NCBI GenBank assembly: GCA_018141845.1
Contig: CP073340.1
Coordinates: forward strand, 1,575,001-1,639,000
Reading direction: 5' to 3'
Origin: Lachnospiraceae bacterium oral taxon 096
GTDB lineage: Bacteria; Bacillota; Clostridia; Lachnospirales; Lachnospiraceae
DNA length: 64,000 nt
The stretch's first letter is position 1, and the number at the start of each line of letters is the position of its first letter. Made by a program: the position numbers and the translations under genes. Under the pieces are notes generated by a model. It was not told the origin of the DNA and made no database searches. It worked only from the letters and a program-made list of their open reading frames with translations. Shown piece after piece: positions 21,819-30,530 of this stretch.

Positions 21819-24014
21819 ATGGCAGAGAAAATATTAAGAACGGAATATTCAGAGGAGATGCAAAAGTCCTACTTGGACTATTCAATGAGTGTCATCACCT
21901 CCAGAGCGATTCCAGATGCAAGGGATGGCTTAAAACCAGTGCAAAGGCGTGTGCTCTATGATATGAGTGAGTTGCACATCAATGCCGATAAGCCACACAG
22001 AAAGTCGGCAAGAATTGTGGGCGATACCATGGGTAAGTATCATCCCCATGGAGATTCTTCCATCTATGAGACATTGGTCGTATTGACGCAGGATTGGAAA
22101 AAGGGAATGCCCTTGATTGATGGGCATGGAAACTTTGGCTCAATTGAGGGCGACGGAGCAGCGGCCATGCGCTATACGGAGGCCAAGCTCACAAAGTTTA
22201 CACAAGAAGTCTTTTTAAAGGATCTGGATAAGACTGTGGACTTTGTTGCCAACTATGATGAGACAGAAAAAGAACCTGCAGTTTTGCCAGTGCGCATTCC
22301 TAATCTCTTGTTAAATGGAGCAGAGGGCATTGCCGTAGGTATGTCCACTTCGATGCCACCACATAATTTGGCAGAAATTTGTGATGTCTGCATCGCCTAT
22401 ATCCGAAATCGTCTGATTAGTGTCGAGGAATTGATGCATATTATGCCAGGACCTGATTTTCCGACGGGGGGAATCGTTGCCAATCGCTCGGATTTATTGG
22501 ATATCTATCGCACGGGAACGGGAAAGATTAAGCTTCGAGGAAAGATTGAGATTGAGCTTGGAAGAAGAAAGAGCGACAAGGACAGGTTAATTGTCACAGA
22601 AATTCCCTATACGATGATTGGTGCGGGATTAAATAAGTTTTTACAAGATGTGGCGGATCTTGTGGAGAGCAAAAAACTTCCTGAAGTGGTGGATATTTCC
22701 AATCAGTCGGACAAAAATGGTACACGCATTGTCCTTGAGTTGAGGAAGGATGCTGATATTGACCGTGTCAAAAATATGCTCTACAAAAAGACGAAGTTAG
22801 AGGATAGCTTTGGGGTAAATATGCTGGCCATTGCACAGGGGCGACCAGAGACATTGAATCTTTTGAGTATTTTGCAAAATTTCCTTGATTTTCAATATGA
22901 GAATGCGACAAAAAAGTATAATATTCTTCTGGAAAAGGAGATCGAGAAAAAGGAAATTCAAGAGGGACTGATTCGGGCCTGCGACTGCATCGACCAGATT
23001 ATTGCCATTCTGAGAAAGTCAAAGAATATCTCACTGGCGAGGGAGAGATTGATGGCAGAACTTGAGTTTACACAGCGTCAGGCACAGGCTATTTTGGAAA
23101 TGAAGTTATATAAGTTGATTGGTCTTGAGGTGGAAGCCCTGTTAAAGGAGAATCGGCAGACACTAAAGAATATTAAAAATTACACCAAGCTTTTGCAATC
23201 ACAAAAGAGTATGGACGAGGTTTTGATTGCTGACTTATTAGAGATTAAGGAAAAATTTGGCAGACAAAGAAGAACTAGCCTAGAAGATGCCAAGGAAGCT
23301 GTAGTTGTGGAATTGCCAAAGGTGGCACAAAAGATTGTCTTTGTCATGGATCGCTTTGGCTATGCAAAGACGATGGATTTTGGTCTGTTCGAGAAAAACC
23401 GTGAGACCGTGGAGAGCGAATATAAGTATGTGGTTCCGATGATGTCAGATGACAAGGTCTGTATATTTACCGATTTGGGGCTTTTGCATCAGGTGAAGGC
23501 AGAAAATATTTTATCGGGAAAATTAAGAGATAAGGGGATTCCTCTGGACAATCTTTGCAAGTTGGATACAAGTAAGGAAGAAATTCGCTTGATTGCATCC
23601 TTTGCTCAAGTTTCTGATGAGGAAAAGCGATTACTTTTTGTGACCGAATGGGGACTCATTAAGCAAATCGACGGAAAGGAATTGAGCACGAATAATCGCC
23701 AGGTAGTGGCCACAAAGCTTGGTGAGGGCGATAAGGTGTTGAGTGTTCGTCTAGTCAGCACAGATAGTGGGTATGAGGAAGTGATTCTTGTCTCCGATGG
23801 GGGATATATTGTCAAGTTTCCACTGATTGCCGTCAATCTCTATAAAAAGACCTCTAAGGGAGAAAAAGCAATGCGTCTTTTGGAGGGAGAAAAGTTAGTG
23901 GCTATGTATCTACTTTCGGATGGTGATATTGTCAAGATCCATGGAAAGCCAGTCAATCTATTGAAATTAAAGCTGAGTAACCGCAATGATCGTGGGACAA
24001 AGCTGAAGGGATAG
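21819..24014 (+). CDS. parC: Type IIA topoisomerase cleavage subunit (ParC/GyrA-like)
   Basis: 731 residues, shorter than typical GyrA (over 800). The winged-helix active region contains the catalytic Tyr in AAAMRYTEAKL and the quinolone-determining segment YHPHGDSSIYE, with the usual Ser and Glu, so no resistance change is seen. The coiled-coil 'tower' follows, with LEFTQRQAQAILEMKLYKLIG. The C-terminal beta-pinwheel is reduced, and I find no GyrA-box (QxRGGKG), the element gyrase needs for negative supercoiling. This points to a decatenating topoisomerase IV. AGGAG at 21808-21812 gives the start. An IS110 insertion lies 110 bases downstream. Confidence 0.85.
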   Translation: MAEKILRTEYSEEMQKSYLDYSMSVITSRAIPDARDGLKPVQRRVLYDMSELHINADKPHRKSARIVGDTMGKYHPHGDSSIYETLVVLTQDWKKGMPLIDGHGNFGSIEGDGAAAMRYTEAKLTKFTQEVFLKDLDKTVDFVANYDETEKEPAVLPVRIPNLLLNGAEGIAVGMSTSMPPHNLAEICDVCIAYIRNRLISVEELMHIMPGPDFPTGGIVANRSDLLDIYRTGTGKIKLRGKIEIELGRRKSDKDRLIVTEIPYTMIGAGLNKFLQDVADLVESKKLPEVVDISNQSDKNGTRIVLELRKDADIDRVKNMLYKKTKLEDSFGVNMLAIAQGRPETLNLLSILQNFLDFQYENATKKYNILLEKEIEKKEIQEGLIRACDCIDQIIAILRKSKNISLARERLMAELEFTQRQAQAILEMKLYKLIGLEVEALLKENRQTLKNIKNYTKLLQSQKSMDEVLIADLLEIKEKFGRQRRTSLEDAKEAVVVELPKVAQKIVFVMDRFGYAKTMDFGLFEKNRETVESEYKYVVPMMSDDKVCIFTDLGLLHQVKAENILSGKLRDKGIPLDNLCKLDTSKEEIRLIASFAQVSDEEKRLLFVTEWGLIKQIDGKELSTNNRQVVATKLGEGDKVLSVRLVSTDSGYEEVILVSDGGYIVKFPLIAVNLYKKTSKGEKAMRLLEGEKLVAMYLLSDGDIVKIHGKPVNLLKLKLSNRNDRGTKLKG

Positions 24015-24204
24015 AAGGAGAACAAGAGAGTAGAAAGACTAACTATTAAAAGTCAAGCCCTAAAATGATATTTTTTAAATAAAGTACAGAAATGTATTTT
24101 AGATATATTCGGAATACAGTTAGAGCTCCTTGCACTTTGAAAACTGCATGACAAAAAGAGCATCATGATAGGTGCATGAAAAAGGAGTATTGAATTAGAG
24201 TTAA

Positions 24205-25380
24205 TTAAGCTACTTTAATGTATTGCTGATTCGATTTTACAAGATGATAAATAACTCGAACCAGTTTTTTGACGGCATGAGATATTGCAACATTATAATG
24301 CTTGCCTTCAGCTCGTTTCTTGGTAAGGTACCTGGCAAATGTCGAATCCCAGTGGCAAACATACTTGGCAGCATTGTACAGAGCATATCGTAAGTATTTG
24401 GAACCTCGTTTTTCCATGTGGGAGTATGCTGAGTCAAGCTGCCCTGATTGATATGTTGATGGTGAAAATCCGGAATAAGCCAAGATTTTATCAGGAGAAT
24501 CAAACCGACTGAAGTCGCCAATCTCGGCAATGATCATAGCGCCCATACGATAGTTGATACCTGGAATACTGAGAATTGGAGAATTAATTTCATCCATGAT
24601 AATTTTGATTTCATTTTCGATTTCATCAATCTCAGAAGCAAGTTCCAGTATCAACTTGATGGTGTGTTTTAGTTCAAGAGATTTGGCTGGCATATTTGAG
24701 CCGATAGAAGCCCTTGCAGCTTCCCTGAAAGTTATGGCGGTATCTTTACCATATCGACCTTTAGATGCATCTGAAAGAAGATTTGTAAGTCTGGTAAGAT
24801 GTGCACCAGCTACATATTTAGCCCCGGGAAATTCAGAAAGCAATGCATAAATGGATGTCATATGAAGTGTTGGTACAAGTTTTTCTAATTCAGGAAATAA
24901 GATACAGACCAGTCTTGAAACGGAAGTTTTTAGTTTGGCACGTTCTTTTACCTTATCAAAACGATAACGAGTTAATGACTTTAATTCTTCGTTGTGGTAA
25001 GATGTATCTGAGTAGGACTTCAAGTTCACATCAGACATGAGCATGTAAGCAATCGTGCGGGCATCTACTTTATCCGTTTTCGTGAGTCTAAGGCTTAGAC
25101 TTTTTCTGTACAGATTTGTATGTAACGGATTGATGACATAGGTGGTCAGACCTTTATCAATGAGATAACCTAAAAGATTGTAATTATAGTGTCCGGTAGC
25201 TTCCAGTCCTACTTTTACTTTTGTTATATCTTCCATAACAGATTCTATTCTTTGGTAAAGGTCATTGAAACCATCTTGACTGTTAGAAATGGTAAAAGCT
25301 TTAAATAATACTTCTCCATTAGAGTTTGTGATAAAGCAATCATGCTTATCCTTAGCGACATCAATTCCTACATAAATCAT
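24205..25380 (-). CDS. IS110-family transposase (bridge-RNA-dependent recombinase)
   Basis: 391 residues. The N-terminal RuvC-like DEDD domain has Asp7 (GIDVAKDK), Glu60 (GLEATGHY), Asp103 and Asp106 (TKTDKVDARTIA). A central coiled-coil follows, then the C-terminal Tnp domain with IPGINYRMGAMIIAEIGD and the catalytic-serine motif SPSTYQSGQ (Ser312). These positions closely parallel the published IS621 residues. The protein excises the element as a circle and inserts it under direction of a bridge RNA. The reading frame is intact and full length, so the element may be active. The binding site GGAG is at 25386-25389 on the minus strand. Confidence 0.95.
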   Translation of the reverse strand: MIYVGIDVAKDKHDCFITNSNGEVLFKAFTISNSQDGFNDLYQRIESVMEDITKVKVGLEATGHYNYNLLGYLIDKGLTTYVINPLHTNLYRKSLSLRLTKTDKVDARTIAYMLMSDVNLKSYSDTSYHNEELKSLTRYRFDKVKERAKLKTSVSRLVCILFPELEKLVPTLHMTSIYALLSEFPGAKYVAGAHLTRLTNLLSDASKGRYGKDTAITFREAARASIGSNMPAKSLELKHTIKLILELASEIDEIENEIKIIMDEINSPILSIPGINYRMGAMIIAEIGDFSRFDSPDKILAYSGFSPSTYQSGQLDSAYSHMEKRGSKYLRYALYNAAKYVCHWDSTFARYLTKKRAEGKHYNVAISHAVKKLVRVIYHLVKSNQQYIKVA

Positions 25381-25404
25381 AATAATCTCCTTTAAAATGT
25401 ATTT

Positions 25405-25615
25405 GATACTGTTTTAGAACCACAGGGACTCCTTGCGATTGTAGCCTCGTTCTAAATAAACCGTCATGCGGTATCTAACTGATTAACAAATGAGCAAAGA
25501 GACTGTGGTTGGGGCCTTTCTAAAACCATCAAGTGGTAGGAGTAAATAACCAATCCACAGTATCTTATATATCATAGTCGAACCTACGGAAGAGGTAAAG
25601 AAAAGACTATGACTT
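25405..25615 (-). ncRNA. Candidate IS110 bridge RNA
   Basis: The non-coding region upstream of the transposase, on the same strand, contains ordered stem-loops. Stem-loop 1 pairs 25572-25579 with 25605-25612 (8 perfect pairs). Stem-loop 2 pairs 25502-25512 with 25550-25561 (11 pairs, one bulge) around a large loop. A small hairpin ACCG/CGGT lies near 25460-25472. The last pairs 25414-25420 with 25449-25455 (7 perfect pairs) around a 28-base loop. This matches the known plan: 5' stem-loop, target-binding loop, donor-binding loop. The RNA contains CAGTTAGA (25481-25474), complementary to the minus strand of the flank next to the element end, and GCAAGGAG (25436-25429), identical to the element end itself. 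Confidence 0.65.
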
Positions 25616-25682
25616 AATAGTTATAAAGACCTTGGAGAGGGTCTCTAAAAACTACTACTATATAATACGAGGAGAGAAAGAT

Positions 25683-26399
25683 ATGGATAAAATTCCGACA
25701 CCACATATTGAAGCAAGAGAAGGAGAGATTGCAAAGACCATCCTCTTGCCAGGAGATCCTTTGCGTGCAAAGTTTATCGCCGAGCATTTTTTAGAGAATG
25801 TCAGGCAATTTAATCAGACCAGGAATATGCTCGGTTTTACAGGAACTTATCAAGGGAGAGAAGTCTCTGTGATGGGTACAGGAATGGGTTGTCCATCGAT
25901 GGGAATTTATTCCTATGAGTTGATTCATTTTTATGGGGTGAAGAATCTCATTCGCATTGGAACAGCGGGTGCGATGAGTCAAAAGGTAAAAGTGAAGGAT
26001 ATGATTTTTGCTATGGGCACCTGTACAACATCAAATTTCCCATCCTTAATGGGACTTCCAGGTCAATTTTCTCCTCTGTGTTCATTTGAGTTATTACAAA
26101 GAGCAGTCACTGTAGCAAAAAGGCTAGGCATTGACTATCATGTGGGCAATATTCTCACTTCGGATATGTTCTATGCACCACAAACAGAAAATAAAGAGGG
26201 GATGACATGGGCAGATATGGGGGTGCTGGCGGTGGAGATGGAGGCCGCAGCACTCTATACCAATGCAGCCGCAGGGGGAGCCAATGCCCTTGCGATTCTC
26301 ACCATTAGTGATGACAAGGAGCGAGGCGAGATGACGAGTGCAAGGGAGAGAGAGACTACCTTTACCAATATGATGAAGGTTGCATTGGAGTTGGCATAA
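25683..26399 (+). CDS. deoD: Purine-nucleoside phosphorylase, DeoD type
   Basis: 238 residues from ATG 25683 with GAGGAGAG at 25669-25676; the frame stays open upstream into IS110-derived DNA but that part is not coding. Visible family motifs are the phosphate-binding LLPGDPLRAKFIAE, the GTGMGCPSMGIYSYEL segment, the trimer/hexamer motif IRIGTAGAM, and the base/ribose-binding EMEAAALYT with the later SDD-like TISDDKE. It cleaves purine (deoxy)nucleosides with phosphate in salvage. The IS110 element ends about 45 bases upstream, so the native promoter may have been displaced; a TATAAT at 25661-25666 is too close to the start to be a normal promoter. Confidence 0.95.
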   Translation: MDKIPTPHIEAREGEIAKTILLPGDPLRAKFIAEHFLENVRQFNQTRNMLGFTGTYQGREVSVMGTGMGCPSMGIYSYELIHFYGVKNLIRIGTAGAMSQKVKVKDMIFAMGTCTTSNFPSLMGLPGQFSPLCSFELLQRAVTVAKRLGIDYHVGNILTSDMFYAPQTENKEGMTWADMGVLAVEMEAAALYTNAAAGGANALAILTISDDKERGEMTSARERETTFTNMMKVALELA

Positions 26400-28591: not shown

Positions 28592-29209
28592 ATGAGTAAA
28601 TACTATTCTATCAGAGAATTTTCAAGAATTTTAGGAGTATCAGCCCAAACACTTAGAAATTGGGATGCAAACGGTAAACTTCATCCACATCATGTGTCTA
28701 GTAATGGATACAGATATTATTCTCATGAACAATTAAATCAGGTTATGAATATAAAATCTGATTTGAATAGAATTGTCATTGGATATTGCAGAGTTTCAAG
28801 CAATAAACAAAAAGATGATTTAGAAAGACAAATAGAGAATATGAAGCTGTATCTAAATGCTCAAGGGAAACCTTATGAAATAATTTCGGATATAGGTTCT
28901 GGAATTAATTATAAGAAAAAGGGTTTAAGAGAATTAATCAAACGTATATCTCAGCATGAAGTGGAAAAAGTTGTAGTTCTTTATAAAGACAGATTATTAA
29001 GATTTGGATTTGAATTAGTTGAATATGTTGCAAGTTTATATAATTGTGACATAGAAATAATTGATAATACAGAAAAACCAGAACAGCAAGAGCTTGTAGA
29101 AGATTTAGTTCAAATTATCACAGTTTTTAGTTGTAAATTACAAGGCAAACGTGCTAATAAAGCTAGAAAATTAGTAAATGAATTAATGGAGGTTGACAGT
29201 GAAAAATGA
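28592..29209 (+). CDS. tnpA: IS607-family serine recombinase (TnpA)
   Basis: 205 residues. The N-terminal MerR-like helix-turn-helix (about 4-55: YSIREFSRILGVSAQTLRNW, GYRYYSHEQL) precedes the small-serine-recombinase catalytic domain. That domain has GYCRVSSNKQ, where Ser69 is the predicted nucleophile and Arg67 supports it. The DNA-binding-first order is the mark of IS607 rather than resolvases. Later motifs are VVVLYKDRLLRFGFEL and the helix near the end. It catalyses excision and integration without target duplication. The binding site AAGGAGG is at 28568-28574. The stop overlaps the tnpB start. Confidence 0.95.
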   Translation: MSKYYSIREFSRILGVSAQTLRNWDANGKLHPHHVSSNGYRYYSHEQLNQVMNIKSDLNRIVIGYCRVSSNKQKDDLERQIENMKLYLNAQGKPYEIISDIGSGINYKKKGLRELIKRISQHEVEKVVVLYKDRLLRFGFELVEYVASLYNCDIEIIDNTEKPEQQELVEDLVQIITVFSCKLQGKRANKARKLVNELMEVDSEK

Positions 29210-30381
29210 TAAAATCAATAAAAATCAGACTATACCCAAATAATAAACAGATTACTAAACTATTTCAATATGCTGGATGTGCGAGATTTGCTTACAATTG
29301 GGCTATTACAAAGGAACAAGAGAACGATAAGCAAAAAAATAAATTCTTATCGGATAATGAATTACGAAAAGAATTTACACAGCTAAAGAAACTGCCAGAG
29401 TATAGATGGTTAAATGAAGTAAGTAATAATGTAACAAAGCAAGCAATCAAAGATGCTTGTAATGCCTATAAAAAATTTTTCAAAGGGCAATGCAAATATC
29501 CTAAATTTAAAAGTAAAAAGCATTCAACTCCTTCTTTTTATCAAGATACTGGTAAAATTCAGTTTACAGATACTCATGTAAAAGTCGAAGGATTTTCAAT
29601 GAGTAAAAGACGAAATAAACAAAAATTGAATTGGATTAGACTTTGTGAAAAAGAAAGAATACCAATTAACTGTAAATACTTAAATCCACGCTTTACATAT
29701 GATGGATTGTATTGGTATGTATCCATTGGAATTGAAGTAGATGACAATAATAATCTTCCATCAAATGATGGTGTCGGAATTGATTTAGGTATTAAAAACT
29801 TAGCAGTTTGTTCTGATGGAAATACTTATAAGAACATAAATAAAACACAAAAAGTAAGAAAAATAGAAAAGAAAAAACGCAGGTTACAGCGTTCAATATC
29901 AAGAAGATATGAGAAAAATAAGAAAGGAGGCAGTTATTGTAAAACAAGTAACATAATAAAAAGAGAAAAAGAACTTTTAAAAGTAATAAAACGATTAACA
30001 AATATTCGTCAAAACTACTTACATCAGACAACATCTGAAATCATAAAGCGAAAACCAAGTTTTATCTGTATGGAAGATTTGAATGTAAGTGGAATGATGA
30101 AAAATAAGCATTTATCCAAAGCAGTACAACAACAATGTTTTTATGAATTTAGAAAGCAGATTGAGTATAAGTCTAACTGGAATAATATTTCAGTCATTAT
30201 AGCAGACAGATTCTTTCCAAGTTCTAAACTATGTAGTTGTTGTGGAAATATTAAAAAAGATTTGAAACTGTCTGACAGAATTTATAAATGTGAATGTGGA
30301 AACATCATAGATAGAGATTTTCAAGCAAGTTTGAATCTAAAGCAGTATGGAGAGAATGTTTTAAAACAATCTGTAGTGTAA
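29206..30381 (+). CDS. tnpB: TnpB RNA-guided nuclease of the IS607 element
   Basis: 391 residues. The N-terminal OrfB helix-turn-helix region is IKIRLYPNNKQITKL; the wedge domain follows. The RuvC nuclease has Asp193 (GIDLGIKNLAV), Glu290 (CMEDLNVSGM) and the Asp369/Asp371 pair (IDRDFQASLNL), so all catalytic residues are present. A zinc ribbon sits between RuvC II and III with Cys343, Cys346, Cys362 and Cys364 (LCSCCGN, KCECGN). TnpB uses an RNA from the element's right end to cut DNA next to a short transposon-associated motif, which favours retention of the element. The gene is complete, so activity is plausible. Confidence 0.95.
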   Translation: MIKSIKIRLYPNNKQITKLFQYAGCARFAYNWAITKEQENDKQKNKFLSDNELRKEFTQLKKLPEYRWLNEVSNNVTKQAIKDACNAYKKFFKGQCKYPKFKSKKHSTPSFYQDTGKIQFTDTHVKVEGFSMSKRRNKQKLNWIRLCEKERIPINCKYLNPRFTYDGLYWYVSIGIEVDDNNNLPSNDGVGIDLGIKNLAVCSDGNTYKNINKTQKVRKIEKKKRRLQRSISRRYEKNKKGGSYCKTSNIIKREKELLKVIKRLTNIRQNYLHQTTSEIIKRKPSFICMEDLNVSGMMKNKHLSKAVQQQCFYEFRKQIEYKSNWNNISVIIADRFFPSSKLCSCCGNIKKDLKLSDRIYKCECGNIIDRDFQASLNLKQYGENVLKQSVV

Positions 30382-30530
30382 CACTTTAAAGTTATTACAG
30401 ATATGTACCGAACGTTAATCGGGAATTGACGCCTACGGAGAGTACAAGAACTTGTAATTAGTATTTGAATTTATTCAGTATGAAAGCATACTCGATGAAG
30501 TAGGAATGAAACATAAAAGTTTATTAGCTT
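30330..30530 (+). ncRNA. Candidate TnpB omega RNA (scaffold plus guide)
   Basis: Downstream of, and probably overlapping, the tnpB 3' end. Hairpins: TACAAG/CTTGTA (about 30442-30455) and AGTATG/CATACT (about 30478-30493). The scaffold ends GAAGTAGGAATGAAAC (30497-30512), very like the conserved 3' ends of TnpB omega RNAs and Cas12f repeats. The guide would be the next 16-20 bases (from 30513), which are host DNA in front of galM. It is therefore predicted to target the empty insertion site. Confidence 0.55.

Follow-up and report, generated by a model that had tools for sequence, protein, structure and literature searches.

Introduction

Guided targeting is established for insertion sequences of the IS110 family (PMC11208160, PMC11208158 and PMC11187229). 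For IS621 and the other members of the IS110 group, the bridge RNA is encoded in the left end, 5' of the gene for a DEDD recombinase (PF01548/PF02371; PMC11208160; PMC11208158). The IS621 system has a target loop followed by a donor loop, a CT core and a promoter rebuilt across the joined ends, and its targets are REP elements (PMC11208160). Its left target guide (LTG) pairs with the bottom strand and its right target guide (RTG) with the top strand (PMC11208160; PMC11208158). The IS1111 group belongs to the same recombinase superfamily and follows the same guide logic, but carries its RNA in the right end together with subterminal inverted repeats of 7-17 bp (PMC11208160). For ISEc21, the upstream non-coding region gives a seekRNA in which each target strand is matched by one of two short segments, the top-strand match lying 3' of the bottom-strand match in IS110-type seekRNAs; its target is a codon region of IS3-family transposases (PMC11187229). 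A further target class is known from IS900, an IS110-family element of Mycobacterium avium subsp. paratuberculosis, whose target motif CATGNNNNNNTCTCCTT comprises a start codon and a Shine-Dalgarno sequence (PMC8141618, which cites a 1997 paper titled 'IS900 targets translation initiation signals ...').

The locus described here resembles IS621 in its recombinase, in the position of its RNA, in the order of the two loops, in its CT core and predicted joined-end promoter, and in the strands to which the two target guides are assigned. It differs in that its targets are Shine-Dalgarno sites instead of REP elements, in a longer left end with one or two extra stem-loops, and in a left donor guide that shares only six letters with the donor and stops short of the core. 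The two matched segments and their relative placement are those of the seekRNAs, the target being a translation-start signal and not a transposase codon region as for ISEc21; with the IS1111 group only the recombinase superfamily and the guide logic are shared, the RNA lying here in the left end. IS900, from another phylum, has the same target class. It inserts between the spacer and the Shine-Dalgarno sequence, whereas the insertion point of the element studied here lies upstream of the Shine-Dalgarno core, which stays with the gene. In kind this is an ordinary IS110 element; of note are its target class, the translation-start signal, and the many natural guide/site pairs. Together these make it possible to read, in the RNA itself, how an IS110 element locates ribosome-binding sites. 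No guide-based reading of Shine-Dalgarno targeting by IS110 or IS900 was found in the literature searched, subscription papers and supplements lying outside it.

The element and its ends

The window, a stretch of 64,000 nucleotides (64 kb) to which all positions below refer, comes from a genome of 2.24 Mb assembled in one contig. The element occurs there in six full copies that are 100% identical. Aligned in the direction of the recombinase gene, the copies read ..TCCT/CGTATTATATAG.. at the left boundary and ..AATAGTTAGT/CTTTC.. at the right one (the slash marks the boundary), and outside these limits their sequences differ. The copy in the window lies on the minus strand, as do all features given below unless stated otherwise. 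Without its cores it occupies 24038-25669 (1632 bp), the six copies diverging exactly beyond these limits, and with one CT core it measures 1634 bp in 6/6 copies. Copy comparison and guide register place the CT cores at 25670-25671 on the left-end side and at 24036-24037 on the right-end side (AG on the plus strand in both).

The recombinase gene (24205-25380) encodes 391 aa and was assigned from PF01548 (141.6 bits, cut-off 29), PF02371 (73.6 bits, cut-off 21.3), NCBIfam NF033542, 'IS110 family RNA-guided transposase' (209.2 bits, cut-off 140), and alignment to IS621, which together with ISCro4 is its nearest solved relative. In the alignment to IS621 (8wt6), D7, E60, D103 and D106 (DEDD) and S312 fall on the catalytic positions, the roles of which are taken from PMC11208158. 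The left end (289 bp, 25381-25669) is longer than the right end (167 bp, 24038-24204) and holds the RNA upstream of the gene, as is characteristic of the IS110 group; membership of the IS1111 group was considered and rejected, the RNA being upstream of the gene and not downstream. The locus is thus an IS110-group insertion sequence with a predicted bridge RNA encoded ahead of the recombinase, and on this the recombinase family, the catalytic residues and the fold with its covariation agree with the preliminary description of this DNA.

No Rfam family matches the element at gathering thresholds within the 64-kb window. A scan of 23980-25760 for terminator-like sites gave 0 (shuffles, 1.0), so no terminator is claimed after the recombinase gene. 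A promoter directed outward from the left end into deoD was likewise not found in the scan, the 7 sites overall equalling the shuffle level (mean 6.4).

Fold of the predicted bridge RNA

The predicted bridge RNA spans 25402-25655, as judged from fold and covariation, with approximate limits set at the 5' side by the -10 box and at the 3' side by the closing stem. That the non-coding end of the element folds, as first proposed, is borne out: a 236-nt piece folds better than 200/200 shuffles (z -2.64), and a 156-nt piece gives a weaker signal (z -1.83; 5/200 shuffles as good). Relatives were compared in an RNA alignment of 64 sequences, taken from 70 (79 unique in all), from which eight opposite-orientation loci are missing and one locus (L097) was omitted for a duplication. 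Run on these 64 relatives unprompted, RNAalifold returned the same helices as the named structure, a target module followed by a donor module. The former consists of ACTGTGG-A-TTGG / CCAA-CCACAGT with a hairpin inside, and the latter of CTCTTTGC / GCAAGGAG, TTGT / ACAA and ACCG / CGGT. Across the five helices of the named structure 99.1% of cells are paired in the 64 sequences, with changes on both sides in 7/30 pairs as against 2.3 in shuffles; compensatory examples are TTGG/CCAA to TTGT/ACAA or TTAG/CTAA, and CCA/TGG to CCG/CGG.

The target-module stem (helix 1) has its 5' strand at 25550-25561 and its 3' strand at 25502-25512, with both-side changes in 3/10 pairs, and encloses the apical hairpin of the target loop (25525-25537; both-side changes in 2/4 pairs). 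The donor-module stem (helix 3) is formed by CUCUUUGC as 5' strand (25494-25501) and GCAAGGAG as 3' strand (25429-25436), alignment columns 132-139 pairing with columns 66-73 in 98.6% of the cells of the 64 sequences. This bears on the function first given to GCAAGGAG (RNA 25436-25429), which had been read as a donor guide. Its letters are present as described and complementary to the plus strand at 24126-24133, but since it is paired with the CUCUUUGC strand across relatives, it is a structural stem and not a guide.

An alternative fold, seen in 25402-25563 and in the alignment, pairs 5' TACTGT with 3' ACAGTA and CCACAG with 3' CTGTGG. It also covaries (AU/GU/GC 39/13/12 at one of its pairs). 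This fold competes with the target stem and may represent a switch or part of a longer transcript.

Target guides and the flanks of the element

The guide register was taken from published IS110 bridge RNAs as given in PMC11208160, the LTG being the 11 letters that precede the inner hairpin and the RTG the letters that follow it. In the target loop (25516-25548), the LTG is then UAUUUACUCCU (25538-25548), which ends in the core CU and matches the left flank, and the RTG is UUUUAGAAAG (25516-25525), the effective part of which pairs with CTTTCTA and matches the right flank. The 121 loci with a recombinase match were reduced to 111 rows by removing L001-L006, which duplicate L012-L017, and L042-L045, with less than 60% identity. 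Among the 111 rows the LTG could be read in 105, the RTG in 103, the left flank in 100 and the right flank in 107; the covariation and start-codon counts refer to the rows left once identical or too-short flanks were removed.

Over 86 non-identical sites, the LTG agrees with its own left flank at an identity of 0.722, against 0.566 when the guides are permuted (z 13, 0/2000 permutations); with one row per guide the values are 0.720 and 0.563 (70 sites, 0/2000). Outward from the core, the per-position z is 9, 7, 6, 7, 6, 4, 5 and 3, falling to 1.5 at the outermost position. For the RTG, positions 3-7 agree with the right flank at 0.807 against 0.467 permuted (82 sites, z 17, 0/2000 permutations), or 0.794 against 0.451 with one row per guide (66 sites, 0/2000), and positions 8-10 give no signal against the right flank in the 82 sites. 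The match at the CT core is partly by construction, because CT was in the pattern that located the ends. Guide and flank read alike in clear single cases, as in CTCCATT (L025), CTCCGTT (L102), CTATAAA (L060) and CTATTC (L032). Over the 14 scored letters most sites match at 9-12, with only 4 at one site (L067), and in the six local copies only 2-4 of the 6 outer LTG letters match. These comparisons show that the target guides, as placed by the register, match the insertion sites of the element itself.

In L083, L088, L096 and L101 the right guide and the right flank both read CTCGTAT, the letters that start the left end of other elements, and the targets of these four may be places where such other elements have already inserted. 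Upstream of the left end of L120, a left end with the same guide breaks off directly behind its own left guide (ACATTCCTCCT), and a second left end comes next. Since the DNA that encodes a guide is necessarily a perfect half-target on the left side, self-insertion is a predicted accident; the interruption in L120 is apparently such a self-insertion, or else an assembly error.

Insertion sites as Shine-Dalgarno sequences

Read together on the gene strand, the two target guides encode AGAAAGGAG followed by TAAATA, which is a Shine-Dalgarno site. Pre-insertion sites rebuilt from the flanks have at least 5 letters in common with the Shine-Dalgarno consensus in 75/78 cases (mean 7.0), as against 16.5% of random 20-mers, and after insertion at least 4 Shine-Dalgarno letters remain in 78/78 sites (mean 5.2). 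As judged from their letters, these comparisons show that the insertion sites of the element are Shine-Dalgarno sequences. Could the guides instead be directed at the 3' end of the 16S rRNA gene, the Shine-Dalgarno matches being a side effect of complementarity? Between the target encoded by the guides and the complement of the 16S tail, 5-12 letters are indeed shared in 73/73 guide pairs, and at least 8 in 38/73. However, the 16S 3' tail of this genome, GGATCACCTCCTTTCT, occurs three times and is intact each time, no 16S tail was noticed among the flanks inspected by eye, and outside the Shine-Dalgarno core, too, the guides agree with the flanks actually present, which makes recognition of the 16S gene very unlikely.

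The start-codon test required ATG, GTG or TTG at 6-20 nt outward of the junction, followed by at least 40 open codons. Such a start was found at 61/83 left junctions (49 with ATG) versus 7/74 right junctions, the level being 18% at random positions and 23% at AGGA positions; at the other 22/83 left-end sites no such start lies within the range tested. All six local copies have one, and the genes beside them encode HD-domain, ArsC-family, ABC transporter, deoD-like phosphorylase, metallo-beta-lactamase-fold and serine dehydratase alpha chain proteins. In the fifth copy (metallo-beta-lactamase-fold; L016), translation may in fact begin at a second ATG further downstream. For the copy in the window, the Shine-Dalgarno sequence AGGAG retained by the downstream gene lies at 25670-25674 on the plus strand, 8 nt before the ATG at 25683, the true start of a gene of the purine-nucleoside-phosphorylase type (PF01048; deoD-like; 25683-26399, plus strand). 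If the guided reading is right, the uninterrupted parC-deoD site before deoD would read ..GTAGAAAGGAGAGAAAGATATG.., and the guide-matched target would contain ..TATTTACTCCTTTCTA...

Uninterrupted sites were sought in relatives, as the genus of the window is represented in the set by this genome alone. A search with the joined flanks of one relative (L029) covered 41 genomes of its genus and gave a match somewhere in 38 of them. All 9/9 aligned congener loci cross the junction without an insert; 8 carry CCTTTC, and 4 of these CTCCTTTC. The joined flanks share one core, which shows for this one relative insertion at a CT core without target duplication. These empty sites also place the element ends at the CT core and not where they had first been drawn. 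For a second relative (L018), 3/6 genus genomes were matched, outside its own genome by pieces of just 27-52 bp, none of which crosses the junction.

The same sites bear on the view that no guide is involved, TCCT and CTTTC being the terminal bases of the element itself and the proximity of start codons reflecting selection against insertion in genes. Both motifs are constant in the six local copies and could, from one genome, be counted as element ends, and intergenic insertions are generally better tolerated. Yet in relatives with the same left-end start the adjoining letters vary with the guides (CCTTCT, CTCACT and TTTACCT on the left; CTCCATT, CTCCGTT and CTATAAA on the right), start codons are found at the left end only and not at the right, and the uninterrupted congener sites already hold CCTTTC. 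Unguided insertion is therefore very improbable.

Proposed insertion mechanism

The stretch under study is very probably the left end of an IS110-group element that encodes a bridge RNA whose target guides would read Shine-Dalgarno sites. In the mechanism proposed from these sequences, the excised circle would join the two ends and so create a promoter for the RNA. The left guide, composed of the anti-Shine-Dalgarno CUCCU and five to six outer letters, would pair with a Shine-Dalgarno site on the gene strand; the right guide (AGAAAG) would take the opposite strand, and the circle junction would meanwhile sit in the donor loop. Strand exchange at CT would then place the element just upstream of the Shine-Dalgarno core, with the recombinase gene directed away from the host gene. 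The latter would retain AGGA(G) and its start codon and would lose its former leader and the sequence upstream. On this reading CAGTTAGA is an arm of the donor guide, and GCAAGGAG a structural stem.

Such a guide pattern might also be the fossil of a dead remnant; its outer guide letters match the six local sites only in part. Against this stand the six 100% identical copies at different sites, each with an open frame of 391 aa, which imply recent movement, and the catalytic residues that have been kept. A dead element is accordingly a very poor explanation of the locus.

Donor guides and a predicted promoter across the joined ends

On the right side of the donor loop lies the guide ACGAG (25446-25450); in 98/100 rows the right donor guide is the complement of the left end of the element that carries it. 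The partner of ACGAG is the right donor sequence CTCGT (25667-25671), which comprises the core and the first left-end bases and was placed by copy comparison and guide register. In the 100 rows, right donor guide and left end switch as a pair between four classes, CTCGT, CTACT, CTTGT and CTGCT. The left donor guide, CAGUUAGAU (25473-25481), is assigned from its place in the donor loop, and the left donor sequence at the right end, AATAGTTAGTCT (24036-24047), from copy comparison and guide register. This guide (CAGTTAGAT) has AGTTAG in common with the right end, does not reach the core, is nearly invariant whatever the target and shows no covariation; in five rows the right end has changed to AGTTAGACT and the guide is still CAGTTAGAT. 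Pairing of this nearly invariant guide with the right end is accordingly putative.

It was this segment that had first been taken for the target guide. As described, CAGTTAGA is present in the RNA (25481-25474) and on the plus strand at 24117-24124, a stretch read at first as the flank of the element. The six copies, however, are common through to the core at 24036-24037, so that 24117-24124 and the supposed element end at 24126-24133 are internal, about 80-95 bp inside the element. Neither CAGTTAGA nor its complement occurs within 100 bp on either side of any of the six copies. This result and the empty sites of L029 are the two kinds of observation that the preliminary description had named as refuting its reading. 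CAGTTAGA is part of the donor-binding loop and stays nearly constant from target to target, the target guides lying at 25516-25548. The adjacent pair of sites, GCAAGGAGCTCTAACTG, occurs in 6/99 right-end regions, and all six are copies of this same element. Two or more 8-mers in common between RNA and right end arise in 46% of right-end shuffles, which puts the two 8-letter matches at chance level. From the preliminary description, the order of target module before donor module and the idea of readable guides thus hold, but both guide assignments, the target site and the element end have to be given up. That CAGTTAGA guides to a flank at 24117-24124 and GCAAGGAG to an end at 24126 has next to no probability, as the 8-letter matches, literally present, are of a size expected by chance, both sites lie inside the element in six copies and the pair is absent from the other 93/99 right ends, and GCAAGGAG is a paired stem in relatives.

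The predicted promoter is split between the ends, with a -35-like TTGACT at 24051-24056 and a -10-like TATTAT, read from the sequence, at 25662-25667; the former would be used only once the ends join in the circle. Joining the ends in silico gives TTGAC[T/A]-17-TAT[T/A]AT in 86/99 rows, with 13 exceptions.

Relatives and turnover of the target guides

Relatives of the recombinase at E <= 1e-70 were found in 34/397 genomes. The best 80 of 362 relatives in named genomes are mostly from Lachnospiraceae, the top match listed being from Lachnoanaerobaculum sp. ICM7, and the same build is seen in related elements of other bacteria from gut and rumen. The set provides natural guide/target pairs at 86 left-side and 82 right-side sites, and what sets closely related elements apart is chiefly the target guides, so that how bridge-RNA elements change targets becomes testable. 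Among 13 pairs with a 6-10% base difference in the recombinase gene, the outer LTG differs by 43% and the RTG by 32%, third codon positions by 18% and the donor region by 1.2%; for the 15 pairs with a 3-6% difference the values are 17%, 24%, 8.4% and 0.6% (the pairs are not independent of each other in either comparison).

One way in which guides could change is capture, the guide being copied from the site. The outer LTG matches at 0.57 where a guide is found at a single site (53 sites) versus 0.55 where it is found at several (22), and the right side gives 0.78 versus 0.88. Since single-site guides match no better, there is no support for the copying of sites into guides.

Taken further, it is conceivable, if somewhat against the odds, that this Lachnospiraceae-centred IS110 lineage is a specialised seeker of translation-start signals. 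The guide core would be locked on the Shine-Dalgarno sequence and the surrounding letters would outpace third codon positions, so that relatives share a general address and divide the single sites, and each landing would re-wire a leader while sparing the Shine-Dalgarno core.

The four more distant elements set aside above (L042-L045, about 41% identity) have the left end CTTGTATGATG and the right end CATAGCTGGTCT. Among those with a known left flank, at least L043 and L045 likewise begin a few nucleotides before an ATG. A second IS110 element, with a 454-aa frame, is present in the same genome in eight copies (L134-L141). In its readable copies the left end directly adjoins CAT or AT, and its outward reading is GGAGATTTTTATG, as though the element provided a start codon with a Shine-Dalgarno sequence; in at least one such copy (L137) the CAT is no true start codon. 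The window also contains a separate IS607-type element at 28592-30506, with an IS607 transposase (NF033518), an overlapping 391-aa open reading frame named TnpB-like by its appearance (29206-30381) and a RAGATH-18 RNA (30432-30506), the sole Rfam match.
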